50,937 nt of DNA from a virus. Of the stretch, positions 1-23,221 are shown in pieces; position 1 is the stretch's first letter; each line of letters begins with the position of its first letter. The stretch covers positions 1 through 50,937 of IMG/VR virus record IMGVR_UViG_3300050011_000306; one strand, written 5' to 3'. The notes beneath the pieces are model-generated. The model worked only from the letters and a program-made list of their open reading frames with translations. It made no database searches and was not told the DNA's origin. The translations under genes were made by a program, and so were the position numbers.

Positions 1-1127
1 GCTTTGACCGTCCAAACACCCCGGCAATACTCCTTCAAGGGGTTGGTTTCGGACGCGGCCCCAATCAAAGTGCCGTAATAGTCTGGAACCTTGCCGCTAA
101 AATAGCGGGTTCCAACAATGTCTGTGAAGCCGTGACCGCCAACGATGAACTTCGAGGAATCGATCTTAGCCTTGAGGGATTTGCGCGCGTCCTCGTTTTC
201 CGAGTTCGAGTTGGTCACAACGTCGTCCATCTTACGGACGTCGGCGTGCTTACCTGAGATACCTTGCTTGATCGAGCGGACCCAGAGAGACGCGTCCTTC
301 TGGTGATTGATCGCCGCGGGGCACCACATGTCCTCATTCGACGTGCCCTTAATGCCGGTCAAGATGTACTCAGGAAACAAAAGATGAAAGTCTGTAGGGT
401 CTTCGTTACTCTGAAGATTGAACCGTTTCTTAACTTCTCCCAAAAAGTCGTCGGCCAACTCTTCCGTACCCGACAGAATCGAGATCATACAATCTGGAGC
501 GTTCAAGAACCACTGTACGCAATCCGCGCAATTGATAACCGTCTTGTAGAAACCGCGAGGAAACAGAAGCAGCATGCGCTTCTCGCGAGGGAAACGGTGA
601 ATCGCTTCACGCATATCCTCAAGCGTATAACCCTCGTAGTACACCCCGTCGAAGTCCTTCTTGACGAACATGTCGCACACAGGCCCGTGCACCCTTTGAT
701 TCAAGGAGCGGAGCCGCAACAGTTCATAACACAGCCAAAACAAATTCTTGCGTGCCTTATCGCGGAGTTCAAGCCACTCGTCGAACGTGACGCGTCGACC
801 CAATATCTTGGCTGAGCAGGGCTTCAGCACACGTTTCTTTTTCTTTTTCTTGTCTTCCTCTTCCTCGTCGCGTTCCGGCATGATGCCGAGAAAGATCATA
901 GCCAACTGCGTGCATGAGCGAACTTCGGACCTGTATCGATAGTGGATCTCAGGACGAGCGTCCTGAATCAGTACCCGGTCGTCGTCCATAAGCGCGGCGT
1001 GCGCGAGTACGTCCTGCACATCCTGTGCTGGCTCAAGTTCTACTTTTTCCGTTAACGCGCGAGTCGCCTTCTTGATGGCCCACGCTTTCTTATTTGCTTC
1101 CCGCTTTGCATCGCCTGTGATAGGCAT
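1..1127 (-). CDS. terL: Terminase large subunit, N-terminal ATPase part (cut by window edge)
   Basis: The motor ATPase that packages DNA into the prohead. The reading frame is open from the ATG at 1127 through the window edge, giving 375 residues. After an acidic/lysine-rich insert (residues about 87-99, EEE then a K run) there is a Walker A-like PRGFYKT (190-196), of the PRGxxKT type seen in phage terminases, and a Walker B candidate MDDVV (300-304). The nuclease domain lies outside the window. A GGAG ribosome site sits about 8 nt before the start. The identification rests on motifs and phage context. The poly-lysine insert is unusual and may be a surface loop. Confidence 0.8.
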   Translation of the reverse strand, partial: MPITGDAKREANKKAWAIKKATRALTEKVELEPAQDVQDVLAHAALMDDDRVLIQDARPEIHYRYRSEVRSCTQLAMIFLGIMPERDEEEEDKKKKKKRVLKPCSAKILGRRVTFDEWLELRDKARKNLFWLCYELLRLRSLNQRVHGPVCDMFVKKDFDGVYYEGYTLEDMREAIHRFPREKRMLLLFPRGFYKTVINCADCVQWFLNAPDCMISILSGTEELADDFLGEVKKRFNLQSNEDPTDFHLLFPEYILTGIKGTSNEDMWCPAAINHQKDASLWVRSIKQGISGKHADVRKMDDVVTNSNSENEDARKSLKAKIDSSKFIVGGHGFTDIVGTRYFSGKVPDYYGTLIGAASETNPLKEYCRGVWTVK

Positions 1128-1186
1128 GTCCTTTCTCCATTGATTGTGCTGCAACATCTATTGTACTGCGGTAGGGCGTGCTGCGA

Positions 1187-7494: not shown

Positions 7495-8151
7495 TTAAAG
7501 CCTATAAAGTCGTTCGACGAATTCCGGGGCGTCGTAGGGACAAACCACGGAAGCATTCTGGCGGGTGATCTCGCAATTCATACAATTTTCCCAACCCGTC
7601 GCGGACGGGCGACAATGCGCTCGACACCTATAGCCGCATTGCGATCTAAAGATTAATCGGTTCGGACTGTCTTGGGGCATAATACCCCGGGCTGCGAGAA
7701 CACCGCCAACCCACCGATCCTCAGCCGGATCTCCGTCCCACGTAGCCGCCGCTACGGCCTCCGCGGAACGCCGACTCAACGTATAGCCGAACCCACTGCA
7801 ATATATCTTGTTGGAGTGTCCGACATAATCCCCCAACTCTTTCAGGAGATTGTGCGGCTTCACGAGCGTGTCGTCGTCGGTCTTCAAAACGTAATCGTAA
7901 CCCCGCTTGACGGCCCATGCGAACATGGCCTGAACCTTGAGCGGAAGATTCGGGTAGTCGTCCGAGACCGGCAGTTGCACCGTATTAGGCAGCAGCACCT
8001 TCAACTCCGTCGTGTGTATTCCGGGGCGCTCGCCCACAAAGAACCTGACATCGATCCCCGCGGCTTCAGCATCTGGAACCCATGTGAAACGCTGCATGCT
8101 CGCGCGCTCTTGAAACTTGTGGCACGTTGTCACGCCGATTAAGAAGCGCAC
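7495..8151 (-). CDS. Glycosyltransferase, GT31/fringe-like (left paralogue)
   Basis: 218 aa with a GTG start behind GCGGAGAGA, overlapping gmd by 13 nt. The sequence follows the galactosyltransferase/fringe plan: [20 protein letters not shown] at the N-terminus, [26 protein letters not shown], then the metal-binding [13 protein letters not shown] (about 92-104). A later Cys-rich region ([13 protein letters not shown]) is unusual and may bind zinc. It likely transfers a sugar from a nucleotide-sugar donor. It is a paralogue of the gene at 15124-15783 on the far side of the cassette. Confidence 0.75.
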
Positions 8152-9095
8152 TGTCTCTCCGCGTTAACCATCAAGTGAACCAATTCATGAAACTTGACTT
8201 TGGGCTCCCAGTTCAGAATCCTACGGGCTTTCGAGGCATCGCCTTGGAGCAAGTCCACTTCGGCGGGGCGGAAATACTTTTCGTCTGCCACCACATACCC
8301 ATGCCAGTCCAAGCCCACAAACCCAAATGCCGCGTCCAGAAATTCTCGGACAGAGTGCGTCTCGCCGGTTGCGATCACAAAATCATCGGGCGCGTTCTGC
8401 TGCATCATCAGCCACATGGCCTCAACGTATTCTTTGGCGTAGCCCCAGTCGCGCTTGGCGTCCAAGTTACCCAGAAACAACTTGTCCTGATCTCCGGCTG
8501 CGATACGTACTGCGGCCTTGATGATCTTCCGGGTCACGAACGTCTCGCCGCGGCGAGGTGACTCGTGGTTGAACAGAATGCCGTTGCACGCGAACATATT
8601 ATAGGCTTCGCGATAATTCACGGTAGTCCAGAACGCAAACTGCTTCGCGATCCCATAGGGGCTGCGGGGGTAGAACGGCGTCGTCTCGCTCTGCGGCGTT
8701 TCCAATACCTTGCCGTACAGTTCGCTGCTGCTGGCTTGATAGAACCTCGCCGGGCAGATCAAATTCCTATTGGCTTCCAACAATCGCAGGGTGCCTAGCG
8801 CATCCGCGTCTGCCGTGTACTCTGGTATTTCGAAACTCACACGCACGTGGCTCTGAGCGCCGAGGTTATAAATCTCGTCGGGCTCTATTGTCGCCACAAT
8901 TCTGTTCACTGATCCCGCGTCGGTCAGATCGCCAAAGTGCAAGTGCAATTGATCGAATACGTGATCGATCCTTTGGGTGTTGATGCTGCTTGACCGGCGA
9001 ACGATGCCATGAACTTCGTAGCCCTTCTCCAACAGGAGTTCGGCCAGATAGCTGCCGTCTTGGCCCGTGATCCCTGTGATGAGCGCGCGTTTCAT
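8139..9095 (-). CDS. gmd: GDP-mannose 4,6-dehydratase
   Basis: 318 aa, from the ATG at 9095 that overlaps the previous stop by 4 nt. It converts GDP-D-mannose to GDP-4-keto-6-deoxymannose, the entry step to GDP-fucose, GDP-rhamnose, perosamine and colitose. The sequence has the Rossmann [17 protein letters not shown], the [13 protein letters not shown] segment typical of Gmd, ASSSELYG, the active-site YxxxK in YGIAK, and [16 protein letters not shown]. Length is close to normal for the family (about 320-370). Family-level assignment is secure. Confidence 0.95.
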
Positions 9096-9808
9096 GATCC
9101 CCATTCTTTCTTTAGCTGCTCGAACACCGATGTGCTGGGATAAGTTCCGTTCTTGTCCCGACCGGCCTGTCTCCACAATTCGTTGAAGAAATGAACTGAA
9201 TAGGCATCCTTGAAATCTATAGACGCCCCTGCTCTCGTAAAGTCGTTTGGCACGCCCGCCCAGAATATGGGAAAGAACAATCGTCCGGGTATGATGTACT
9301 TCTGATATCCGAAATGGTGAACTGCTTCTGTGATCAAAGGAGGGCCTGCTTGGCCCCACGTCATAGTCGCCGGATTCATTTGCTGACACTGCGCCCAGCC
9401 CCACTCCATAATCGGACTGTGCGCGGGCGCCTTGAACAACCCACTCGTAATGCAATCGTCTGATCCCGGTTTCCCCAAACCACCGATGAACACGTATTCA
9501 GAATCGAACACGAAGGGCTTGAGGCACACGGCGTCGGTATCAACCCACCAGCCGCCCTTTTCCAGAACCAGTTTCCATCGGAAGAAATCCGAGAAACTTG
9601 AATAGCCACCGCGGACCAAGAACAACTGCTCACGCGGAATAATCTCGTTCGCGTCCTTGACGATCACGCCATCGGGTATGCGACCTACAGAATCGTACAC
9701 GTACAGAACATACTCGTGTCCGTTCTTCAAAAAGGAATTGATGCTCAGCCTCTCCATGTTGGAGAGATCGCCCGTCACCCACAACCCCTGAACTATGTCG
9801 TGTATCAT
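9092..9808 (-). CDS. Glycosyltransferase, GT32/DXD sugar-transferase type
   Basis: 238 aa. The N-terminus is [19 protein letters not shown]. The core [28 protein letters not shown] (about 72-99) is the classic D-x-x-R...GG-x-[YW]-x-D-x-D signature of Gly_transf_sug/GT32 enzymes that bind UDP- or GDP-sugars through Mn. It sits between gmd (4-nt overlap) and the GIY-YIG gene (5 nt apart). Acceptor unknown. Confidence 0.85.
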
Positions 9809-9813
9809 AAAGT

Positions 9814-10416
9814 CTAAGAAAAAGCAACTATCAGATTTCGTTCGCTACAAAGAACGCAACGAGGATTTGCACGATTTCGATCTTCGTGAAATCGTTTATG
9901 GGTTTGAGATCGAGCAGCTGCCGCCTGATGCTCTGGATTTCTTAGACGAGCGAGATGCCCGCTTTCGACATTTCTACGCCCGCCGATACGACCCCCGCTT
10001 CGACCGTTAACGGGACCAGAAGCTTTACCGCCCTTAATAGAGTCCGACGTAGAGAACTTATAAAGTTTTCCTGACTCTAGCGTTTTGCGTCCCCCAACCC
10101 TGCCGCCCATCTGGGCTATGTTCTTATAATTTTTATCTTCCGGGAGTCTAAGATTCATCCCACCATCATAGCCGTACCACGTATGATATTGAAACATCCA
10201 AATAGTTTCCAGTTCGTTCAGCTCAAGGTAATCCTGTACTTCAATCTTCTCTCGAATCGGCTGAGGCAAAGCTATACCCGGAAATTCTTTCCTAAACCGC
10301 TTTCCAAAAGACGAAAGCGCCGAGCGATGAGATTTATCCCGTTTTGGTCCTTGGCCTACGTAAATAAACGCATCCGATTTATACGGATGGGGATAACGAT
10401 ACAGCGTTCCCAACAT
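9814..10416 (-). CDS. GIY-YIG homing endonuclease
   Basis: 200 aa. The N-terminus has a GIY-YIG core (GTLYRYPHP...IYVGQG), followed by a catalytic-domain Glu-rich region NELETIWMFQYHTW. The C-terminal half carries NUMOD3-like DNA-binding repeats (GGRVGGRKTLESGKL and GGRIGGRRNVESGHL). It is inserted within the glycan operon: its ATG overlaps the GT2 stop (TAATG) and its stop lies 5 nt before the next gene. AGAAAGGA is the ribosome site. Confidence 0.8.
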   Translation of the reverse strand: MLGTLYRYPHPYKSDAFIYVGQGPKRDKSHRSALSSFGKRFRKEFPGIALPQPIREKIEVQDYLELNELETIWMFQYHTWYGYDGGMNLRLPEDKNYKNIAQMGGRVGGRKTLESGKLYKFSTSDSIKGGKASGPVNGRSGGRIGGRRNVESGHLARLRNPEHQAAAARSQTHKRFHEDRNRANPRCVLCSERNLIVAFS

Positions 10417-11117
10417 TATTTTTCCTTTCTATAAATAGATTGGATTCGGGCTAATGTCTCTGAAAAGGGGGCCATTGTTTTTGACCTGCACATTGAGTTT
10501 TTATGAACTCGGTAATGAAACAGATATTCCGGAATCACATCTATCTTCCACTTATTCAAAGCCACAATCGAACACCACAAAGCCCAGTCCTCTGAGCCCC
10601 GCGTAAAGTCCTCGGGCCAGCCGCCAACTTCCAGAAGCGTCTCGCGCCGAATCAAGGAGCATACTGCCAAGGTGTTTCCTGAAGTGATCTGCTCCAGCGT
10701 GGGAACAAATATCGGGTAACTCGAACCCGGCGCGCCAGTGCTTTCGCGGCCCAGTCCAAAAATGTGAATCCATGTCGAGACAACACCCACACCATCCATC
10801 ATGCGCGCCACTGTCTTCTCTAAGTAATCGGGCTCGATCCAATCGTCGGAGTCCAGCGGAAGGATCAGATCCCCAACGGAGTGGCCTAAGGCGATGTTTC
10901 TCGTCGCGGGTAATCCGCGGTTCACCTTGTTGCTCATCACCCGGATCTGGGAATGTTTGTCTGCGTACTTTGCGGCCACTTCAAGACTGTTGTCCGTGCT
11001 GGCGTCATTCACACAAATTATTTCCCAATCTATATATGTTTGCGCAAGAATAGAATCAAACGTTTCCGCTACAAACGACGCTTGATTATAGAGCGGCACC
11101 AAAATTGATACGGTCAT
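10416..11117 (-). CDS. Glycosyltransferase family 2
   Basis: 233 aa. Canonical GT2: SILVPLYNQASFVAETFDSILAQTY at the N-terminus, VNDASTDNSLEVA, the nucleotide-sugar site LPLDSDDWIEP (about 86-97), and a later GSEDWALW acceptor-side acidic motif. It probably adds a sugar to a growing glycan or virion acceptor. Its first 32 nt overlap the end of the upstream HNH gene. Confidence 0.9.
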   Translation of the reverse strand: MTVSILVPLYNQASFVAETFDSILAQTYIDWEIICVNDASTDNSLEVAAKYADKHSQIRVMSNKVNRGLPATRNIALGHSVGDLILPLDSDDWIEPDYLEKTVARMMDGVGVVSTWIHIFGLGRESTGAPGSSYPIFVPTLEQITSGNTLAVCSLIRRETLLEVGGWPEDFTRGSEDWALWCSIVALNKWKIDVIPEYLFHYRVHKNSMCRSKTMAPFSETLARIQSIYRKEK

Positions 11118-11613
11118 ATTTTTCTTTCAGCGGTCTTTGAGATAGATATTTCTTAACCACATCACTTTGTAAATCTGAGTCCCGCTCCAACACAGGCAAC
11201 ACAACTCGATTACAATTGGAACACAACAAACCCCGAATACACTCTATGCAACCCGCCGCAGCACCATCTGAGTGAATTACATGTTTGTGGTCGTGGTCTA
11301 CTGATAATTTCAAGAGTTTAGAATCGAACGCCCTCTTACACAAAGCGCATCGGCCATCTTGGGCGTCCAAAAGATATTCATAATCTTCCGGGGACATTCT
11401 AAACTTTCTTTTCAAGGACGTTTTGAAAAGGCTCGTTTGAGCATTCGGGCTTTGACGATACGCGTTCCTCTTCAGACGACTTTCGGGAGTCTTACTCGCG
11501 ATACGAATACACAAAATACATCGAGACCACAAACCATTGAGTCGTCGCCCATCTTTATAAAACTCGTCTAATGACCTCGGCTCTTTGCAGCCGACACAAA
11601 TTTTAGTTGTCAT
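11086..11613 (-). CDS. Endonuclease VII-like HNH homing nuclease
   Basis: 175 aa. N-terminal zinc pair CVGCKEP...CILC (about 5-36), basic linker, then the endonuclease VII core: GRCALCKRAF, LSVDHDHKHV and GLLCSNCNRVV. A Cys pair inside the insert (GCIEC) is extra. The ATGA overlap with the ColD-like gene and a tail that runs 32 nt into the GT2 gene show a seamless insertion between two glycan genes. Confidence 0.85.
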   Translation of the reverse strand: MTTKICVGCKEPRSLDEFYKDGRRLNGLWSRCILCIRIASKTPESRLKRNAYRQSPNAQTSLFKTSLKRKFRMSPEDYEYLLDAQDGRCALCKRAFDSKLLKLSVDHDHKHVIHSDGAAAGCIECIRGLLCSNCNRVVLPVLERDSDLQSDVVKKYLSQRPLKEKYDRINFGAAL

Positions 11614-12794
11614 CGATACACCGGGTTGTATTCATGAAAGACCTCAGAGACATAATCTAAGTCCTCCTTAGTAAGACCCTGATGGCACCCGATGAAAAAG
11701 CCGTGTTTCGCCAATCTCTGTGCCACAGGATACTTTTCGGCTTCTCCTGGGAACAGTTTCTCATAAATTGGCTGCGAAAGCAAGGGAAAAAGATGTCTAG
11801 TTTCTATGCCGCGCTCTTCCAAAAGCAGCAGCAGCTTATCGCGATCCAAGTGCGGGCTCAGCACCATGGGGTACATCATGAAACTGTGAGTGTAGTTCTC
11901 TGGGATGAACGGGAGCTGCAAAATGTTGTCTTCGTCTCGCAACAGAGACGTAAGGTACGCTGCGTTCTGGCGACGACGGGTGATGTTCTCTTCCCAGCGT
12001 TCCAATTCTGACAGTGCAATTGCTGCTTCCAACTCCGTCGCCCGATACGAGTAGCCCAGACGATCAAACTTGTAGCGGCGTTCGATGATGTTCTGAAGGC
12101 CGCTGCCGACGTTGTTGTCGTCATCGATGCTCGTGTAGATCGAGTCTCGACCATGAGCCATGAGGCTCTTGCAAATCTTAGCCAGCTTGTCGTCGTCCGT
12201 GAGAACAAGCCCGCCGACGCCGCCAACTACGAGATGGGCTACGTACGTGCTGAAGCAAGACAGATGCCCGAACGAACCTACAGATCGGCCATTCGTCTGC
12301 GCGAACATGGTCTCACAACTGTCTTCAATCACCTGAAGGTCGTTGTCTGATGCGATGTTCTGGATCATCCGCATATCCGCGGGGAGCCCGAACAAATGCA
12401 CCGGGATGATCGCGCGCGTACGAGATGTAATCTTCTCCCGAATCATCTCGGGATCAATGTTGTACGTAAGTGGGTGCACGTCCACAAACACCGGTTTCAA
12501 GTTGTTCTGCAACACGATGTTCGATGTGGCGATGAAGGTCGTGGCCGGAACCAGCACCTCGTCCCCATCCTGATATCCGTGAACTTCCTTCAGTGCGGCC
12601 AGCGCCACCTGAAGGGCGCTCGTTCCGCTGTTCATGAAGATGCCGTGCTTGGACTGGTGCAGATGCGCGAACTCGCGTTCGAAAGTTTCCGTGTACTTGC
12701 CGCGGGACAAACGGTTGTTGTCCAGAGCGTCGTTCACGTACTCTCGACCCTTCGAACTGATGCCGAGGTGGCCTAGCGTGATTGGACGTACCAT
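11610..12794 (-). CDS. DegT-family PLP enzyme with His at the lysine site (ColD-like 3-dehydratase?)
   Basis: 394 aa, fold type I PLP enzyme of the DegT/DnrJ/EryC1/StrS family (SGTSALQVAL, PATTFIATSN, VIEDSCE). At the site where aminotransferases have the PLP-binding Lys, it has His187 in FSTYVAHLVVGGVGG. Known family members with His here are sugar 3-dehydratases, such as ColD in colitose and RfbH/E1 in CDP-dideoxysugar synthesis. With Gmd next door the predicted reaction is GDP-4-keto-6-deoxymannose to the 3,6-dideoxy form. This is inference; an atypical aminotransferase is not excluded. Confidence 0.75.
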   Translation of the reverse strand: MVRPITLGHLGISSKGREYVNDALDNNRLSRGKYTETFEREFAHLHQSKHGIFMNSGTSALQVALAALKEVHGYQDGDEVLVPATTFIATSNIVLQNNLKPVFVDVHPLTYNIDPEMIREKITSRTRAIIPVHLFGLPADMRMIQNIASDNDLQVIEDSCETMFAQTNGRSVGSFGHLSCFSTYVAHLVVGGVGGLVLTDDDKLAKICKSLMAHGRDSIYTSIDDDNNVGSGLQNIIERRYKFDRLGYSYRATELEAAIALSELERWEENITRRRQNAAYLTSLLRDEDNILQLPFIPENYTHSFMMYPMVLSPHLDRDKLLLLLEERGIETRHLFPLLSQPIYEKLFPGEAEKYPVAQRLAKHGFFIGCHQGLTKEDLDYVSEVFHEYNPVYR

Positions 12795-13702
12795 TCGATG
12801 GTCTCTTTCAGCCCTTGTTCGAGCAACGTCTTTGGTGCAAATCCGAACTGACGAGCACGAGTAATATCCAGAACCCGGCGGGCTTGCCCATCGGGCTTGC
12901 TGGCGTCCCAGACAACATCGCCGTGGAAACCGACTATGCTCTTAACTCTATCGACAATATATGAAATTGAATTCTCGTTGCCCGATCCCAAGTTGATGGG
13001 CATGGACTCGTTGTAGGATTCCGCGGCTTGGATGATTCCTTCCGCGGCGTCCTTCACGAACATGAAGTCTCTTGTTGCTCGCCCTGTTCCCCACATCGTA
13101 ATAAAGGAGGCGTTTGTTTCTTTAGCTGTCACGCACCGACTGATTATCGCCGGAATAACGTGGGACGTTCCCAGATCAAAATTGTCGCCGGGCCCGTACA
13201 GGTTCGTGGACAGGATGTGAATGACGTTCATGCCGTATTGCACGCGATACGCTTGGCCCTGAACCAGAAGGGCGCGTTTGGCTATTCCGTAAGGAGCGTT
13301 GCTGCCCTCGGGGAAACCGCTCCACACATCCGTCTCTTGCGTGGGTATCGGCGCGTTCGCGGGATACTCGCATGCGCTGCCCATCTGCACAAACTTCTGA
13401 ATGCCGAACTGCTGCCCGACGTCCATCAACTGCATCCCCATTATTGCGTTGTCGTAGAAAAACTTTCCGGGGAGGGCTCGGTTCGCACCGATGCCGCCTA
13501 CGAGCGCCGCCAAATGAATGACAACATCCGGCTGCGCGTGGTGATACATCCTCACTGCGTCCTCGCGTTGGCGCAAATCGTAGTCCTGAATGCGGGGTAT
13601 AAAAACTTTGGAACAACCCATCGCCCACAAACGATTGACGACATGCGATCCCAGAAAGCCAGCGCCGCCAGTTACGCAAACCCGCTTATCCCTGAGATTC
13701 AT
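12773..13702 (-). CDS. fcl: GDP-L-fucose synthase-like epimerase/reductase
   Basis: 309 aa SDR enzyme. Rossmann TGGAGFLGSHVV at 11-22. Catalytic residues of GDP-fucose synthase are conserved: Ser109 and Cys111 in MGSACEYP, Tyr138-x3-Lys142 in YGIAK, and the His of NLYGPGDNF...SHVIPA. It should epimerise and reduce GDP-4-keto-6-deoxymannose to GDP-L-fucose. A ColC-like role on the dideoxy product of the neighbouring enzyme is also possible. It overlaps both neighbours (22 and 17 nt), so it is translationally coupled. Confidence 0.85.
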   Translation of the reverse strand: MNLRDKRVCVTGGAGFLGSHVVNRLWAMGCSKVFIPRIQDYDLRQREDAVRMYHHAQPDVVIHLAALVGGIGANRALPGKFFYDNAIMGMQLMDVGQQFGIQKFVQMGSACEYPANAPIPTQETDVWSGFPEGSNAPYGIAKRALLVQGQAYRVQYGMNVIHILSTNLYGPGDNFDLGTSHVIPAIISRCVTAKETNASFITMWGTGRATRDFMFVKDAAEGIIQAAESYNESMPINLGSGNENSISYIVDRVKSIVGFHGDVVWDASKPDGQARRVLDITRARQFGFAPKTLLEQGLKETIEWYVQSR

Positions 13703-14348
13703 CTCGGGCTCTTTTCTTGAGGTAATTATCCTCAGCCAGCAAACGTCCAATCTCTTCTTGATGCGCCGGAGGGCAAGCAGCGATAACCGCGGCCATCTCA
13801 CTCGACGCGCGAGGGATGTCGTAGCCTGTACTGTTTGGGTGATAGGCCTTGAACCGATAGTCTCGAACCACCTTCAATCCCATAAGTCGCGCGGTGGCGA
13901 TGGCGATGAAGTCCATACCCCACATGAAAGATACTTGGGGGTCTATGCGCGGCATCCGTCGTACAACATCTCCGCGAATCGCGATGCACAAAGAATCAGT
14001 GTTGGGAACTTCGTAGACGCAGGGCTCAACAAGTTTCAGATCAGTAAGATTATAGATGTAGCTCGTCCACGCGATATCCGGGGCATACCAACCCACATCC
14101 CAGCGAGAGAAAATTCTCTCCATCTCTGAAAACATTGTTTCGAAATCAACGGGCAGCGTGACATCAGCCATAACCCACAGGAGAACATCACCGGTGAACT
14201 GCGCGCGCGCCTTCTTCCACTGCGCGTTGAAGTAGTCGGAGGGATCGTCCAGAACCGTTACCCCACAGTGCGGAATGATTCTATTTGCAACCTCTTGCGC
14301 ATGCTGTTTGGGGCCGGGCCAGTCTGGAACGAATGCTTCGAACTTCAT
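13686..14348 (-). CDS. Putative glycosyltransferase, GT-A-like
   Basis: 220 aa. The N-terminus (FVPDWPGPKQHAQEVANRII) and a central LLWVMADVTLPVDFE with an acidic motif resemble GT-A enzymes that act on nucleotide sugars, followed by SYIYNLTDLKL and an MGMDFIAIATARLMGL segment like the acceptor region of GT2 enzymes. No exact family can be named. It overlaps the fucosyltransferase by 4 nt and fcl by 17 nt. Confidence 0.6.
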   Translation of the reverse strand: MKFEAFVPDWPGPKQHAQEVANRIIPHCGVTVLDDPSDYFNAQWKKARAQFTGDVLLWVMADVTLPVDFETMFSEMERIFSRWDVGWYAPDIAWTSYIYNLTDLKLVEPCVYEVPNTDSLCIAIRGDVVRRMPRIDPQVSFMWGMDFIAIATARLMGLKVVRDYRFKAYHPNSTGYDIPRASSEMAAVIAACPPAHQEEIGRLLAEDNYLKKRARDESQG

Positions 14349-15127
14349 ATCCTAAGCCATCTTTCTGGGACGATATCCGTGTCGTCCGCTTTGTCTTTCT
14401 CAACAGCAAACCAACGACGGGGTGCGATCACCGTTCTGCCCGCTTGATCGTCGCCGATCCACGCGCCCCACCAAGAGAAAGAGGAGTTGGCAACAATGGC
14501 ATGCTTGCAGGAGGCCATGAGCCTCAAGTCTTCGTGCTTGTCCGTGCCTTCCACGATGCGGAAGTCAGACGGGAAATGCTCTTTACACCAGTCCGTGTCG
14601 TCGGAGAAGACAAAGAACTTGGGGTTGATGTGTTGGTCACGAATCGTATCCACGGCCCCGGCGTAGTAGTCGAGTCCCGGCATCCCGTGAAAATGTTGTA
14701 GACCCACATAGTCCTGACGACGGACGTGAATGAACACACTGTTCTGTTTCAATATCTCGGTACTTATTGATTTCGTGTAGGGCTGAAGAGGCTTGAACAT
14801 CCAATGAGAGTTGAATCGCTTTCGAATGCTGTACGATTGAGCCTCAAAGTACTTTTCGGATTGCCAGTACCCCACCATAGTGCGGTCATAGGGCGGCTCC
14901 AACATCTGGGAGTCGAACCTCAAACTCTTCTCATACAGGGGCTGGTTCGTTGAGTTGTCTCTGAACTGGAGATCGAAATACTCTTCGAGTGAATACTCGC
15001 GATGCGTGCCCTCGATAAGTTCAGATCTATCGAAAGCAACTTCGAAGCCGTGGCTCTCCAATGCGAAACCGTACGCTCTCTGGAAGAGCTGATTGCCCAT
15101 CCCGCCTAAAAGCTTGACGACGATCAT
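14345..15127 (-). CDS. Alpha-1,2-fucosyltransferase, GT11
   Basis: 260 aa from the ATG at 15127 (4-nt overlap with the upstream stop). GT11 signatures are complete: N-terminal GGMGNQLFQRAYGFAL, the GDP-fucose-binding IHVRRQDYVG (about 145-154), and ANSSFSWWGAWIG near residue 215. It transfers L-fucose from GDP-fucose to a hexose acceptor. Its presence beside gmd and an fcl-like gene gives the phage both donor synthesis and use. Confidence 0.9.
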   Translation of the reverse strand: MIVVKLLGGMGNQLFQRAYGFALESHGFEVAFDRSELIEGTHREYSLEEYFDLQFRDNSTNQPLYEKSLRFDSQMLEPPYDRTMVGYWQSEKYFEAQSYSIRKRFNSHWMFKPLQPYTKSISTEILKQNSVFIHVRRQDYVGLQHFHGMPGLDYYAGAVDTIRDQHINPKFFVFSDDTDWCKEHFPSDFRIVEGTDKHEDLRLMASCKHAIVANSSFSWWGAWIGDDQAGRTVIAPRRWFAVEKDKADDTDIVPERWLRI

Positions 15128-15783
15128 TTGGTAGCCCCGTGCAATGACTGCATGGCTTTCATCCAACCCGCAAGATAGTCAACTACGAAATGACTTCGGG
15201 GATAGTGCCAAGAGATGTGCCCGACAAAATCTATCAGATCCGCGGCACGGATCACGCCGCCTTGAATCCACGGACCCAGTACTTGGCCCACGTACATGTC
15301 TTCTGCCCAGACGTGCGGTTCGGTATCGACGATAACGCGAGCTGCTTTGGCTGAGACGAAATAGCCTCTACCGCCAGAGGGCCACGAATAAACTCCACGA
15401 TACTCCCCGCGCTCATCCTTGTAATCGAAAGGCAGGCTTCCCACCGGATGGCCTACACAAAACTTACCGGCCACATCATGGGACTCAAATCCACAAGCCA
15501 TCAACCCCCGTGGGATGATGAAGGTGTCGGTGTCGCAAAGAAACGTGAACTCGTATGCGGCGGCTACCGACCACCGCAAAATCTCGCGTGTCTTCTGCGG
15601 CAACGAATCATAATCGTCTGGCGCGTCTACAGACACTTCGTCTGTTTTCGATGGCGTGCCCCGGCCAATGAAGAAACGTAAATCAGCGTCTCGCACATCA
15701 CGACCCCACGTTTGCCTGATGGTTTCGTGACTGCCTCTTTCTAAATCGCGCTGACACGACTTCACTGCCAGAAGAAGTCTCAT
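15124..15783 (-). CDS. Glycosyltransferase, GT31/fringe-like (right paralogue)
   Basis: 219 aa from the ATG at 15783, behind AGGAG. It shares the plan of the gene at 7495-8151: MRLLLAVKSCQRDLERGSHETIRQTW, DLRFFIG, DDYDSLPQKTREILRWSV, then FLCDTDTFIIP with the DxD motif (about 101-111). The C-terminal GGRGYFVSAKAA and EDMYVGQVL are typical of galactosyltransferase/fringe enzymes. It opens the glycan cassette in transcription order. Confidence 0.75.
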   Translation of the reverse strand: MRLLLAVKSCQRDLERGSHETIRQTWGRDVRDADLRFFIGRGTPSKTDEVSVDAPDDYDSLPQKTREILRWSVAAAYEFTFLCDTDTFIIPRGLMACGFESHDVAGKFCVGHPVGSLPFDYKDERGEYRGVYSWPSGGRGYFVSAKAARVIVDTEPHVWAEDMYVGQVLGPWIQGGVIRAADLIDFVGHISWHYPRSHFVVDYLAGWMKAMQSLHGATK

Positions 15784-15791
15784 AAGGACTC

Positions 15792-17438
15792 CTAGAAATT
15801 GCCCTTGTTGTAACTCATTTCGAACTTGGTCAAGTAGGCTTGGAATAAATCCGGCCCGCTGATGGTCCCGCCGAACTGCACACCCAAACTCAACTGTATG
15901 ATGGGCTCTCGGTGACGACTCGGGCGCGAATGGCCCGAAATAGTCTGGGGCGGATTGATTGAGTATCCGCTTCCGTAGTACTGCGTCCCGCCAATCCACA
16001 AGCGGCCAGCGCAACTAACGACCGGCGTACCCACGCCGTTTCCGGCGAGCGTAGCAATCAGCGTCCAACTATTCATTGTACCCGGCACCAGAGCCGTGGG
16101 GCTCACCAAAGTAAACAGGGTGTCGATAACCTGCGCCTGACCGAAGCCAAAATAGTTCTGTGACAGAATGATATTGACAGTCGGACTAACCGCAGAGGCA
16201 GGAATGAAAACCATTCCCTGCGCGGTCACTGTGTAAACCTTGCCTGAGAGGCGAAGGTTGTCGGGCGCGACTAAGAGTTCGCCCGGCGCCTGCACGCGTC
16301 CCTGAAAACCTTGGTTGTCCGGGGTTCCCGGAGTTGACCAACGTGGCGGCAGCACAGAGCCCGCATTCACATTGGGGAGAAAACTTGGCTGGTGAAACAA
16401 CTGCAACGTATTGGAGTTCGTGTCCAGATACGCAGGATTCGATAACGTGACTCCGAACTCTCTCAAGATGTACGGAGACGGCTGACTCCCCACCGGGTTC
16501 GACGAGAACACACCCATGCTGCCACGACCTGCCATGGCGCACGCAAGCGACACCACAACCTCGCCCGTCAAATTTCCGATAAGAGAACCCTGCCCCGCCA
16601 TAGCTGCGGCCAAAGAGGCCGAAGCGGATAGTGTGGCCGAGAGCGAACCCGTTCCAGCCATTGCGGCAACGAGGTTCGGACTGATAAATGTAGTGAGGTT
16701 TGCAACAACCGAGCCATGTCCTGCAAGAACTGCGGCTAAAGATCCGGTACCGGAAAGTGTTCCGCTAAGAGATCCGGCCCCGGCCATCGCTGCCACAATA
16801 TTCGAGAGCGATGCTCCTGCCTTGAACGCGACGCCAACAATCCCTCCGGCTGGGGAACCTGCAGTCGATATGCCGAGAACTGCGCCCGTCTGCGGCGAGC
16901 TGTACGTTGTATAGGCCCCTGCTTGACGAACGTTTTGAAAGGATGAAGTCTCAAGGATCATCGGCGGTGTCGCGCTCCACCCGCCAACTCCATTCCGATC
17001 ATATATGCCGCAGAACGCTATTTCGTCTGTGCCCGACGTGTTTGCCGAGGCGGTATTGCTGAGACCTGCCGAAACCAGCGCCCCCTCTAGGAATAGCACG
17101 TCGAATATAGGCGTGCCGCCCGTGATGGGAACGACCCAGACATACAGAAGTGCTGTACCGGAATTTGGCTGCCAATTCGCCGTAACAACTAGCGCGGCGT
17201 TTGCGGGCGCGCCGAAAGTGTAACCGAACTGATAGTCGTCAGTCCCGTCCGATATCAACGTAGTTGACGCGTACACGTTCGAACTTGAGTCCGTGACGAC
17301 GACGGGTGTATCAACAGTAGGCGCGACAGCAAGAAAGCAAATCATCGCACCCGAAGGAACGTTGATAGCGTTCGAAGTCACAGGTGAGAAAGCTGAGCCA
17401 CCCGTAAAACTTACAAGAGGAGTCCCGAAAATACTCAT
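15792..17438 (-). CDS. Large virion or fibre protein with AMAGxGSL repeats
   Basis: 548 aa. A beta-rich N-terminal domain (about 1-205) is followed by five imperfect repeats of A-A-M-A-G-x-G-S-L-x-x-x-L (about 213-305), hydrophobic and glycine-containing. A second beta domain (about 320-548) follows, with PPRWSTPGTPDNQGFQG and LSLGVQFGGTISGPD. It looks like a tail fibre or head-surface protein. It is immediately upstream of the glycan genes and so is a candidate acceptor. Start supported by AAGGAGCG. Confidence 0.6.
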   Translation of the reverse strand: MSIFGTPLVSFTGGSAFSPVTSNAINVPSGAMICFLAVAPTVDTPVVVTDSSSNVYASTTLISDGTDDYQFGYTFGAPANAALVVTANWQPNSGTALLYVWVVPITGGTPIFDVLFLEGALVSAGLSNTASANTSGTDEIAFCGIYDRNGVGGWSATPPMILETSSFQNVRQAGAYTTYSSPQTGAVLGISTAGSPAGGIVGVAFKAGASLSNIVAAMAGAGSLSGTLSGTGSLAAVLAGHGSVVANLTTFISPNLVAAMAGTGSLSATLSASASLAAAMAGQGSLIGNLTGEVVVSLACAMAGRGSMGVFSSNPVGSQPSPYILREFGVTLSNPAYLDTNSNTLQLFHQPSFLPNVNAGSVLPPRWSTPGTPDNQGFQGRVQAPGELLVAPDNLRLSGKVYTVTAQGMVFIPASAVSPTVNIILSQNYFGFGQAQVIDTLFTLVSPTALVPGTMNSWTLIATLAGNGVGTPVVSCAGRLWIGGTQYYGSGYSINPPQTISGHSRPSRHREPIIQLSLGVQFGGTISGPDLFQAYLTKFEMSYNKGNF

Positions 17439-17447
17439 GGGCGCTCC

Positions 17448-17888
17448 TTAGGATTCTGTAATCGTCAGCGCGCCGATGGCGAAGCTCGGAGTTATCCCCG
17501 AACTAACCGCCAAAGGCGTAGTCAAGGCTCCGAACCAAAGCAGGTTGCCCGTGCCGGACGCGAGGGTTCCGATAGCGGCGTACGTTTCTGATTCGCTGCC
17601 GCCTGTTGCTGCCGGGAAAGTCACCGCGGCGACGTTCGAAATCGTCTCGCCCGTAATTGCCCAGCCGCCGGACGTGCGCGCGACTGGCACGCGGGAATAA
17701 CTCGTGTAGGCCGCTTCGCTCGTGGTCTGGTTGCCGGTAGCGCCCGGGTTCGCAGTATGCAAGCTGACGTACAAGTTAGTCAGCGGGCTGCCCGCGTTCG
17801 CGAGCAAGCTAGCGATCTCTGAGAACGTTGCTTGAAAGATTGCTTCAAGGAACAAGATGCTGTTGGTGTTTCCTTTTCCGGTTGCCAT
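17448..17888 (-). CDS. Phage structural protein of the LYVSLHTA type
   Basis: 146 aa. The pattern LTNLYVSLHTANPG...NQTTSEAAYTSYSRVPVAR, GWAITG, VTFPAATGGSE and LLWFGALTTPLAVSSG is shared by a widespread family of small phage virion/tail proteins known mainly as hypothetical. Function unproven. It lies 9 nt upstream of the large fibre gene and 8 nt after the membrane protein gene. Confidence 0.65.
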   Translation of the reverse strand: MATGKGNTNSILFLEAIFQATFSEIASLLANAGSPLTNLYVSLHTANPGATGNQTTSEAAYTSYSRVPVARTSGGWAITGETISNVAAVTFPAATGGSESETYAAIGTLASGTGNLLWFGALTTPLAVSSGITPSFAIGALTITES

Positions 17889-17896
17889 GATGCTCC

Positions 17897-18241
17897 TTAT
17901 TTCTTTGCGTTGTTAATCGCGTTGTTGCCCTTAGCCGCCAACAGCCCTGTGACGCCCATCGCTACCTGCGTCCCGGCAATCATCACTTGAAGAATCATGA
18001 GGCCAGTGTGATCAGGAGCTATGTGGGGTGCAGCGAACAAACCCAAACACCCTGCCAGAAGCGGGCCACCTGTTTTCACGATGAAGTTAAGTGCAGGATG
18101 AGCAACAAGCCACGTTGCCGAGGAGTTTGTTTCCACTGCGATCTTCTTGACGTCCACGCCAATGTATGTGGTGTATGCGTCAAGAAATTGACCAGTAGTT
18201 CCCAAAGCGGTCGCTGCCGCCAAAACGATGAAGGTGACCAT
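17897..18241 (-). CDS. Membrane protein with three predicted helices
   Basis: 114 aa. Hydrophobic segments at about 3-28 (FIVLAAATALGTTGQFLDAY), 53-72 (FIVKTGGPLLAGCLGLFAA) and 80-102 (LMILQVMIAGTQVAMGVTGLL), with a basic C-terminus. AGGAGCACC precedes the ATG. Topology fits a class I holin, but it is surrounded by virion genes and no family signature is visible. Confidence 0.55.
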   Translation of the reverse strand: MVTFIVLAAATALGTTGQFLDAYTTYIGVDVKKIAVETNSSATWLVAHPALNFIVKTGGPLLAGCLGLFAAPHIAPDHTGLMILQVMIAGTQVAMGVTGLLAAKGNNAINNAKK

Positions 18242-18249
18242 GGTGCTCC

Positions 18250-19290
18250 TTAGGAGTAGTACGCGACCCCGAGGTGATCGAGGTGGTACACAGCCTTGCC
18301 GCCCTGAACCGTCACTTGAAGAATGTCCTGCAACTGTGCGTTTTCCGAGAACACGTCGGCGAAATAGCCCGCGAGTGTGTTGGTAAGACCCTGACCCAAA
18401 CGGGTGTAGTACTTACCGAACAGAACCTGCTTCGTGGTGCCGCTGCCGTTGCCCGGTGAAGTAGCAGTCGTAGCCGCCGCGATAGTAACTGCGCCGCTCG
18501 ACGTAACGATACCAGCCAGCGCGCGACCGGCCAAGACACCGCCGCCCAGCGTGATGGAGGTGTTGGCGAGAATGTTTCCGCCCATCGTGGAAGTGGCAAC
18601 GGAAGTGAACGAACTGCCGACCAACCAAACCACGTTAGAGGGGTCCGCGCCGTTCTCGAACGTCACTGCTTGGCCTGAGGCCAAGTTGATGGTCGATGAT
18701 CCCTTGAACACATACAGACCGGCGCCGTTCAGGACGAGACCTGTCGTCATGAGCGCAGCACCGAAACTGTAGTTGCCCGGGGTGACGACATTCCCACCCG
18801 AGAAGGCAGTGCTCAAGTTGATTGATCCGCCCAAGGATGTGAAAGACAGACCAGTGTAATAATTGTACGCGATTAAAGCCGCGGCCTGCGCCGCTGCTGC
18901 GTCGGTGTTATCGATGGAGTACGGAGCTGTGACTACGCCCGGAGGAAAGCCGGTAATCGATGGTGTCGGAAATGATCCGATGTTCCCGCCTTTGATCACA
19001 GTGCCCGGGGTAGCGTTGGTGATGCCTGCCGCCGCGAGTATCGTGTAATTTGCAGCCGCGCCCAATTTGGAAGCAACGCTTGAGCCACCGCCGCCAGCAC
19101 CGTTGGACGGAAACAGCGTGACAACACCCAACTTGTTGACGTTAACAACGATGTCGCCGCCTTCATCTATGATTTGCAGGAGGTCCAGCCCGAGAGGATT
19201 TGGTAAAGAGGCGAGTGCGGGAATCGAGCCCGGAGTCAAGAAGAGACGACCCCAATCGGCCTGCGTTCCTTTCGTTATCGTTGCTGACAT
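18250..19290 (-). CDS. Virion protein with DUF3494 ice-binding-type domain
   Basis: 346 aa. An N-terminal phage segment (1-75, with a GGGGSS linker) leads into a DUF3494-like beta-solenoid (about 76-270): LGAAANYTILAAAGITN, GTVIKGGNIGSFP, GFPPGVV, DAAAAQAAALIAYN, TPGNYSF, LVLNGAGLYVFK, NVVWLVGSSF, GGNILANTSITLG and GRALAGIVTSSGAVTI. These blocks match the order seen in bacterial and fungal ice-binding proteins. A C-terminal segment (about 285-346, VTVQGGKAVYHLDHLGV) resembles a virion attachment or trimerisation end. Acts probably on the particle surface; ice binding itself is not shown. Confidence 0.8.
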   Translation of the reverse strand: MSATITKGTQADWGRLFLTPGSIPALASLPNPLGLDLLQIIDEGGDIVVNVNKLGVVTLFPSNGAGGGGSSVASKLGAAANYTILAAAGITNATPGTVIKGGNIGSFPTPSITGFPPGVVTAPYSIDNTDAAAAQAAALIAYNYYTGLSFTSLGGSINLSTAFSGGNVVTPGNYSFGAALMTTGLVLNGAGLYVFKGSSTINLASGQAVTFENGADPSNVVWLVGSSFTSVATSTMGGNILANTSITLGGGVLAGRALAGIVTSSGAVTIAAATTATSPGNGSGTTKQVLFGKYYTRLGQGLTNTLAGYFADVFSENAQLQDILQVTVQGGKAVYHLDHLGVAYYS

Positions 19291-19394
19291 GCTGAATCTC
19301 CTGTGGTTCTATAAGTGCCCGGCGATATTCTGCGTGGTGTGCACCACCGCATGAAGGGGGCCCTTCGCGCCGGACCGGCCCCGCAGAGTTTCAA
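19291..19394. other. Intergenic with two GC-rich hairpins
   Basis: Contains GAAGGG-GG-CCCTTC (19353-19366) and GTGGTG-TG-CACCAC (19334-19347). No T-run follows on either strand. They may slow or process the virion transcript; no gene seen. Confidence 0.35.
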
Positions 19395-19640: not shown

Positions 19641-19961
19641 TTAGATGACTGCGAGAATTTCATTCTCTTTCAAAATCAGCATCTCAACGCCATCAAGTTT
19701 GATGTCGTTGCCGCTGTACTTCCCGAACAGGATTTGATCTCCGACGATGACTTCCATCGGAATGCGCTTGAAGGTAACGGGGTCGATTGCACCGTTGCCG
19801 ACAGCCAACACTTTGCCCATCTGCGGTTTTTCTTTTGCCGACTCCGGGATGAACAACCCACTGGCCGTCTTCTCGTCATCTTGAACGGGTGAAACGAGCA
19901 CGCGGTCTTGGAGAGGACGCGGGTACGACTTTTTTGCCGTCTTGCTTGATGCCTTGCTCAT
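19641..19961 (-). CDS. groES: GroES-type co-chaperonin
   Basis: 106 aa Cpn10. Conserved blocks: RPLQDRVLVSPV, the mobile loop region EKTASGLFIPESAKEKPQ, GKVLAVGNGA, VIVGDQILFGKYSG and ILKENEILAVI. It caps a GroEL ring and helps fold proteins; several phages carry a GroES analogue for capsid folding (T4 gp31 is a functional parallel). No GroEL gene is visible, so it should work with host GroEL. AAAGGA lies before the ATG; a tRNA cluster is directly upstream. Confidence 0.95.
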   Translation of the reverse strand: MSKASSKTAKKSYPRPLQDRVLVSPVQDDEKTASGLFIPESAKEKPQMGKVLAVGNGAIDPVTFKRIPMEVIVGDQILFGKYSGNDIKLDGVEMLILKENEILAVI

Positions 19962-19999: not shown

Positions 20000-20073
20000 T
20001 GGCAGGCCGGGAGAGACTTGAACTCCCAAGTCCCGGGTTGGAGCCGGGCAGTTTGCATTAAGCTTACCAGCCT
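20000..20073 (-). tRNA. tRNA-Trp (CCA)
   Basis: Acceptor AGGCTGG/CCGGCCT with G discriminator and an encoded CCA end. Anticodon stem CCCGG/CCGGG with loop CTCCAAC, so anticodon CCA. T-loop TTCAAGT. The D-stem has a C-A mismatch. Length 74. Confidence 0.9.
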
Positions 20074-20080
20074 ATCGATG

Positions 20081-20156
20081 TGGTTGGCGGGCTAGGATTC
20101 GAACCCAGACTCGTTGGTTCAGAGCCAACTGTGCTACCGGATTACACTACCTGCCA
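20081..20156 (-). tRNA. tRNA-Gln (CTG)
   Basis: Acceptor TGGCAGG/CCCGCCA with one A-C mismatch, encoded CCA. Anticodon stem GTTGG/CCAAC, loop CTCTGAA, anticodon CTG. T-loop TTCGAAT. Length 76. Confidence 0.9.
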
Positions 20157-20165
20157 AGAAAAAAT

Positions 20166-20244
20166 TGGTAGGGTGAGGTGGATTTGAACCACCGTTCTCC
20201 TCTGTCCGAGAGAGGCGAGGACAACCAGACTCCTCTATCACCCT
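20166..20244 (-). tRNA. tRNA-Pro (CGG)
   Basis: Acceptor AGGGTGA/TCACCCT, encoded CCA. Anticodon stem CCTCT/AGAGG, loop CTCGGAC, anticodon CGG. T-stem GGTGG/CCACC with loop TTCAAAT. Only 2 nt separate it from tRNA-His. Confidence 0.9.
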
Positions 20245-20246
20245 AG

Positions 20247-20320
20247 TGGGGTGACGGGAGGGTGTTGGTCCCTCGTACCGCGATTCACAATCGCGTGCTC
20301 TGCCGTTGAGCTACCGTCAC
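20247..20320 (-). tRNA. tRNA-His (GTG), with non-canonical T-loop
   Basis: Acceptor GTGACGG/CCGTCAC, C73 and encoded CCA. Anticodon stem CGCGA/TCGCG, loop TTGTGAA, anticodon GTG. The T-stem GAGGG/CCCTC is perfect but the loop is ACCAACA rather than TTCRANY, and position -1 is T where bacterial tRNA-His genes normally encode G. It may need repair or may be weakly functional. Confidence 0.8.
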
Positions 20321-21392: not shown

Positions 21393-21878
21393 TCACGCGA
21401 CGGCAGTCACAACCATTGTGGCCGACTGTGCGACTGGCGGCGGGGGAGGCGGTGGTGCGGCTGCGTTAACAGTAACCGTATCCGACGCGCTAAGATTGTT
21501 GCCACTGTCTATGGCAGAGATAACTGCTGCTCCGGGAGCCACAGCGGTAATATTGCCGCTCTGATCCACGGTTGCGATAGTCGTATCGCTGGATGAGAAC
21601 ACTGGCGCCAAGATCGGCGCGATCACGTTTCCTGTTCCGTTGAGTCCTGTGAACTCAGTGAAGACGGCCTTCGCGCCGTTTCCGCCTACGAGAATGGTTG
21701 CTGGCATGTCTTTGTCTCCTATGGTCAGAATCACGGATCGTGCTACTAGCATCCCCCGTGACTTCTTCAATTCGTATTCTTCGATCAGATGGACTTGCTT
21801 TTCGAGTTTTTCTATTCGCTCCAACTCGTCCTGCTTTTCGTCCTTCTTCATATCCAAGCGATCACGACTCCTCAACAT
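21393..21878 (-). CDS. Virion protein with coiled coil and Ig-like domain
   Basis: 161 aa from MLRSRDRLDMKKDEK (AAAGGAG, spacing 6). An N-terminal coiled coil (about 10-45) is followed by a BIG2-like immunoglobulin fold (about 55-140: SSSDTTIATVDQSGNITAVAPGAAVISA, typical TATVD..GxVTAVxxGxATI pattern) and a proline run. Such domains occur on phage surfaces and weakly bind host glycans. The exact virion role is unknown. Confidence 0.7.
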   Translation of the reverse strand: MLRSRDRLDMKKDEKQDELERIEKLEKQVHLIEEYELKKSRGMLVARSVILTIGDKDMPATILVGGNGAKAVFTEFTGLNGTGNVIAPILAPVFSSSDTTIATVDQSGNITAVAPGAAVISAIDSGNNLSASDTVTVNAAAPPPPPPPVAQSATMVVTAVA

Positions 21879-21896
21879 GGATACTCCTTTCGGCAA

Positions 21897-23050: not shown

Positions 23051-23126
23051 TGGCTGGGGCGGTTGGACTCGAACCAACAACCTTTCGGGTAACAGCCGAA
23101 TGCTCTACCGATTGCGCTACACCCCA
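23051..23126 (-). tRNA. tRNA-Asn (GTT)
   Basis: Acceptor TGGGGTG/CGCCCCA with G discriminator and encoded CCA. Anticodon stem TTCGG/CCGAA, loop CTGTTAC, anticodon GTT. T-stem GTTGG/CCAAC, loop TTCGAGT. Length 76. Confidence 0.92.
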
Positions 23127-23144
23127 CTTGAACTATTTCAAAAT

Positions 23145-23221
23145 TGGTGGACCCGGAGGGATTCGAACCCCCGACATCCTGCTTGCAAAGCAGGCGTTCT
23201 CCCGGGCTGAACTACGAGCCC
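23145..23221 (-). tRNA. tRNA-Ala (TGC)
   Basis: Acceptor GGGCTCG/CGGGTCC (two G-U pairs), encoded CCA. Anticodon stem CCTGC/GCAGG, loop TTTGCAA, anticodon TGC. T-loop TTCGAAT. Length 77. Confidence 0.9.

Follow-up and report, generated by a model that had tools for sequence, protein, structure and literature searches.

A DUF3494 ice-binding-type domain inserted in a phage late-gene protein, a putative mobile display domain of uncultivated phage particles

The window locus and its DUF3494 domain

The window, i.e. the whole stretch of DNA analysed here, comprises 50,937 nt of the IMG/VR virus record IMGVR_UViG_3300050011_000306. It contains a gene for a 346-aa DUF3494 fusion protein (Table 1), which begins with an ATG codon 7 nt downstream of an AGGAG sequence and is separated from the next gene by 8 nt. 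An earlier note on this DNA had placed a DUF3494 domain at residues about 76-270, and this placement was borne out by a search with the Pfam profile PF11999 (Ice_binding), which matched residues 84-272 over profile positions 1-204 of 208 (E = 3.2e-26) and scored 92.7 bits against a curated cut-off of 28.7, making the protein a member of the DUF3494 family. Comparison with the PDB using phmmer revealed matches to 23 ice-binding, antifreeze or DUF3494 chains, led by 7bwx (1.1e-15). A DUF3494 profile built from cellular sequences only gave the window protein 127.9 bits; the maximum among 2000 shuffled sequences was 13.9 bits, and a chance match was thus ruled out. No signal-peptide-like start was detected in the window protein using a crude rule.

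The fold was examined by AlphaFold and Foldseek, and the prediction agreed with the beta-solenoid that the same note had anticipated. Residues 71-282 were modelled mostly with pLDDT above 90, and both ends with values below 50. The predicted fold, with a helix at residues 131-146 and strands, fits an irregular triangular beta-solenoid with a long alpha-helix. Foldseek analysis of the model revealed 31 PDB matches below 1e-3, every one an ice-binding protein; 7bwx was superposed with a TM-score of 0.83 (by target length) and an rmsd of 2.3 A. Only two significant viral structure matches were obtained, both to DUF3494 proteins of giant viruses. The window protein therefore contains a complete DUF3494 domain, for which a solenoid is predicted with confidence. 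The same domain is found in AnpIBP (7bwx), EfcIBP (6eio) and FfIBP (4nu2), which the window domain resembles in its predicted irregular triangular solenoid and in the composition of the ice-site B-face.

Table 1. Features of the DUF3494 locus in the window.
Feature	Position	Strand	Evidence
DUF3494 fusion protein gene, 346 aa	18250..19290	-	ORF, PF11999, AlphaFold, Foldseek
AGGAG, likely ribosome-binding site	19298..19302	-	sequence
Carrier N-half, residues ~34-60, LDLLQIIDEGG..NVN..GVV	19111..19191	-	DUF3494-less family HMM, duplicated motif
Inserted DUF3494 / Ice_binding domain, residues ~75-273	18472..19068	-	profile and PDB matches, model
Carrier C-half, residues ~285-343, FADVFSEN..DILQV..GG..LDHLGVA	18262..18438	-	DUF3494-less family HMM
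Small membrane-like protein, next gene in operon	17897..18241	-	sub-threshold DUF5658 match
Gp80-like phage fibre / head protein	17448..17888	-	PF23140, phrog_240; beside DUF3494 gene in two relatives, 70-78%
548-aa repeat-rich protein	15792..17438	-	C-part conserved in same two relatives, 47-52%
Large terminase, N-terminal part, cut by window end	3..1157	-	phrog_38 and homology; strand as DUF3494 gene

The integrity of the locus was examined by comparison with other records. A second IMG/VR record of 64.5 kb was 99.99% identical across window positions 5235-50937 (45.7 kb) and prolonged the same phage by 18.8 kb. The architecture of the window protein was repeated in two more relatives, L008 and L166 (54-60% identity), in which the neighbouring genes also matched those of the window, namely the Gp80-like protein, the 548-aa protein and a glycosyltransferase. 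Host contamination or a lone assembly was ruled out by the second record, by these relatives and by the placement of the domain in a phage-only clade (see below).

Several other genes were identified around the locus. A GroES-like cpn10 gene lies just upstream of the DUF3494 gene (19641-19961, minus strand; PF00166, 1.3e-29), and six tRNA genes form two groups (20000-20320 and 23051-23221, minus strand). A protein with a Big_2 Ig-like domain is encoded at 21393-21896 (minus strand), so that the window phage also holds a classical phage accessory domain. Beyond the window, the same phage (G001 46001-64505, locus L193) encodes a polynucleotide kinase, helicases and an RNA ligase of the T4 tail-fibre-attachment type (phrog_562, 1.7e-53).

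Insertion between the halves of a small late-gene protein

The earlier note had described the two ends of the protein as resembling particle segments. Analysis of these ends revealed one motif present at both, DLLQI..GG...N...GV and DILQV..GG....LD.LGV. A search with the end motif (a three-row alignment), followed by a search with a resulting match, identified 13 loci of the carrier family. Twelve of the 13, representing 10 distinct loci after removal of duplicates, encode a protein of 117-131 aa that lacks DUF3494 and has the two halves next to each other. The profile of this DUF3494-less family matched the window protein colinearly, at residues 34-60 and then at about 285-343. Since the DUF3494-less homologues join both halves directly, the domain represents an insertion into a pre-existing phage protein, a small late-gene product of ~120 aa whose two halves it now separates. 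The description of the ends thus stands to the extent that the flanks form a phage late-gene protein family. No PHROG or Pfam name was found for this family, and neither half had a significant match in cultured phages.

A different arrangement was observed in the thirteenth locus (L192) and in L010, where DUF3494 lies ahead of the first carrier half. In both proteins a repeated segment, VYTGT..GG.SNA..G....GFTN.GNNG...TASTATTI, lies between the carrier halves, i.e. in the slot taken by DUF3494 in the window. Similar repeats are also present in L011 and L029.

The gene context of the carrier was examined in two phages that encode it without DUF3494. In both, a terminase gene (phrog_38, 7.7e-38 and 1.5e-42) was identified on the same strand as the carrier, about 5 kb downstream, together with a portal gene (phrog_1216, 8.3e-25 and 1.8e-20); in the one phage tested, this same-strand stretch also gave a weak major-head match (0.0012). 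No terminase was detected via phrog_2 or PF03237 in ten records, and the terminases were found instead via phrog_38 and homology. Taken together, the gene context and the carrier family make a particle role for the window protein likely.

Directly downstream of the late genes lies a glycan cluster (8139-16014, minus strand), largely common to two relatives, which encodes nucleotide-sugar epimerases, a DegT aminotransferase, GT2, GT11 and a GT31-like galactosyltransferase. These enzymes might add sugars to the virion or to the DUF3494 protein.

Exchange between phages and use in tail sheaths and baseplate proteins

To place the window domain among its relatives, its identity to other phage copies was compared with the relatedness of the phages that carry them. 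The window domain was 74% identical to those of L006 and L007, which sit in unrelated flanks, versus 64% identical to that of the close relative L008. The contig holding L008 (G003) has about 20 proteins in common with the window at 50-80% identity, whereas the contig holding L007 (G002) matched the window, in the 40 kb compared, in nothing but the DUF3494 protein and a stretch of terminase at 28% identity. The domain is therefore closer to that of a near-unrelated phage than to that of a close relative, which shows that DUF3494 is exchanged between phages. In a tree of 126 rows, the window domain fell in a phage-only clade of ten that spans several carrier types (support 100/100). A second phage-only group of 19, with sheath, baseplate and fibre-like carriers, was less well supported (84/68).

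Two further empty sites were identified. A segment of 230 residues with DUF3494 in a 1635-aa protein (L009) faces an 8-residue gap in a 1253-aa late protein (G008), for which PHROG and Pfam gave no usable function. The third involves the tail sheaths of L078 and L084, which are 39-45% identical over most of their length to the sheath of Mx1, an isolated Myxococcus phage (OR576727); the Mx1 sheath differs in lacking DUF3494, and other sequence occupies the variable region. Three carriers are thus known both with and without the domain (the window type, the L009 type and the sheath).

The window domain is no one-off; it is one case of a widespread module in phages. Pattern-based scans of IMG/VR revealed at least 80 loci with the DUF3494 profile and at least 59 with a permuted form, which combine to at least 116 distinct viral ORFs, including ORFs cut by contig ends. 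Among these carriers are at least 18 tail sheaths (17 of the Mx1 type and one of another type), at least eight baseplate-J proteins and at least 13 fibre-like proteins, with classes set by homology to sheath and baseplate representatives and to three N-termini that we labelled fibre-like, a name given by no profile. Representative DUF3494-bearing ORFs matched tail sheath families (phrog_2839/279, 1.7e-27 to 5.9e-24) and Baseplate_J (1.2e-11). Some carriers have additional Chitobiase C-terminal, PKD or fn3 domains. At least 12 contigs hold two or more distinct DUF3494 ORFs, and two are present in G005, a relative of the window. DUF3494 has thus been used repeatedly inside tail sheaths and baseplate proteins. 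Fusion shows a virion location for the sheath and baseplate cases; for the window protein we infer one.

Cellular DUF3494 proteins are mostly secreted, whereas the DUF3494 domain of the window sits as an insert within a phage late-gene protein. By the crude rule, a signal-peptide-like start was detected in 54 of 80 cellular and 13 of 80 viral DUF3494 ORFs, and the signal-bearing viral ORFs included in the tree fell mostly among cellular DUF3494. Viral-contig ORFs such as L069/L076, L027/L028, L035/L036 and L051/L063 mostly have signal-peptide-like starts and may represent auxiliary genes of a host-like kind or host DNA misclassified as viral. The signal-bearing viral ORFs as a group may be host-like or auxiliary.

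All DUF3494-carrying phages in this set are uncultivated contigs. No match was detected by tblastn of the window protein, L053 and L035 against 50,697 phage records, a search whose reach does not extend to distant homologues. No paper naming DUF3494 together with phages was found among the open-licence papers searched, and in the part of the eCIS catalogue covered (PMC12923769) an ice-binding adhesin appears in the references only. The earlier note knew of no described phage function for the domain; previous work had listed PF11999 in viruses as an auxiliary metabolic gene (PMC11515562).

Circular permutation of the domain was observed in 17 of the sheaths. In L061, L070, L078 and L084, profile positions ~44-197 were matched first and ~2-58 second, and in all 17 Mx1-type sheaths the C-part of the domain precedes the N-part, an order that in 13 of the 17 was read from the match table, the automatic flag being silent mostly since the second match extends past position 75. 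Permuted order was found in none of 124 cellular DUF3494 ORFs. The permuted segment of L078 was modelled with a pLDDT of 78.5, and its main part significantly matched ice-binding proteins only. Sheath and non-sheath carriers have similar permuted domains, with 61-66% identity among the four. The solved structure of AnpIBP shows coil stacking in the order 1-6-5-4-3-2 (PMC7277481); a permuted chain that starts with coil 2 and ends with coil 1 would therefore run sequentially along the solenoid. Such a sequential form should suit insertion into a loop, and a naturally permuted DUF3494 is a possible template for protein engineering.

Candidate ligands of the displayed domain

To assess the putative ice-binding face, the B-face positions published for AnpIBP (PMC7277481) were mapped onto the window protein by alignment. 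On this basis the B-face coils read AGIT, GAVT, TSIT, SSFT, STIN and a partly gapped AAL-MT, a pattern resembling that of FfIBP (TGIT, TGIN, GAVT, GNLN). The outward positions carry small residues, 50% of them Ser/Thr and 0% charged. The mean charged share was 4% and 1.5% in the two phage clades and 6% in cellular proteins, a low-charge B-face being a trait of the whole DUF3494 family. The composition of the window B-face is consistent with ice binding, short of proof, and an intact face by composition makes ice a reasonable first ligand.

We lean, with somewhat better than even confidence, towards reading DUF3494 as a mobile domain displayed on virions, comparable to the Ig-like domains of phages and probably tethering the particle to ice. 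The Ig-like domains (Fraser et al. 2006, as reported in PMC9022992) are alike in being optional and mobile, in occurring in several virion classes and in having carriers without the domain; they differ in their unrelated fold, and it is the cellular relatives of DUF3494 that bind ice. In the proposed mechanism, a DUF3494 beta-solenoid entered a small late-gene protein between its halves, and the resulting protein would be built into the particle with the domain exposed on the surface. The flat B-face of small and Ser/Thr residues would bind ice as in cellular DUF3494 proteins, and the particle would adsorb to ice surfaces. Freezing soil, peat or ice would then hold virions close to the unfrozen veins where hosts are concentrated, a retention comparable to that by which Ig-like domains are thought to keep other phages on surfaces. 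The presence of DUF3494 in the sheaths, baseplates and fibre-like proteins of many phages suggests that some particles may stick to ice. The wider proposal, that many uncultivated phages display ice-binding domains outside the particle, including the permuted copies in the sheath, which coats the contractile tail, and that whole virions adsorb to and partition with ice, is more tentative and falls a little short of an even chance.

The main rival, which we consider unlikely, accepts display and replaces ice with host or environmental glycans or minerals, the domain aiding adsorption as Ig-like domains do. The sheath, baseplate and fibre-like carriers parallel the virion classes that bear Ig-like domains (PMC9022992), and the Chitobiase C-terminal, PKD or fn3 domains of some carriers point the same way, whereas the B-face retains the Ser/Thr-rich, uncharged and flat pattern of an ice site and every solved structure matched is an ice-binding protein. 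Cryoprotection, in which the domain reduces the damage that ice does to the virion or an auxiliary gene shields the infected host, appears less probable again. The PF11999 "ice-binding like" genes of Arctic vOTUs, which belong to the same Pfam family, were interpreted as host cryoprotection (PMC11515562), with no virion-protein fusion described in the part of that paper covered, and the signal-bearing viral ORFs noted above agree with such a role. The window protein, in contrast, lacks a signal-like start and forms part of a fusion with a late-gene carrier, and a secreted auxiliary protein was rejected for this gene on these grounds. Direct cryoprotection is also less favoured because a polymer that inhibits ice recrystallisation gave phages no freeze-thaw benefit in one study (PMC8672357). 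A passive spacer, i.e. a stable solenoid acquired to make virion proteins larger and lacking a specific ligand, would account for the many unrelated contexts and for carriers that exist without the domain; we regard it as highly unlikely, as both phage-only clades largely keep charge off the outward positions of the B-face and one and the same phage uses this domain family in several of its proteins. An artefact (host DNA, misassembly or chance match) is a concern for metagenomic sequence from an uncultivated source and is extremely improbable given the agreement of two records, the identical architecture in two further phages, the phage-only clade and the shuffled control.

Among the candidate benefits, ice anchoring fits a displayed domain best. 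If correct, it would define the first described class of ice-binding virus particles, as far as the open-licence literature searched shows, and would explain persistence or host finding by some phages in freezing ground. Viral DUF3494 genes would then shift from host-helping auxiliary genes to parts of the particle surface.
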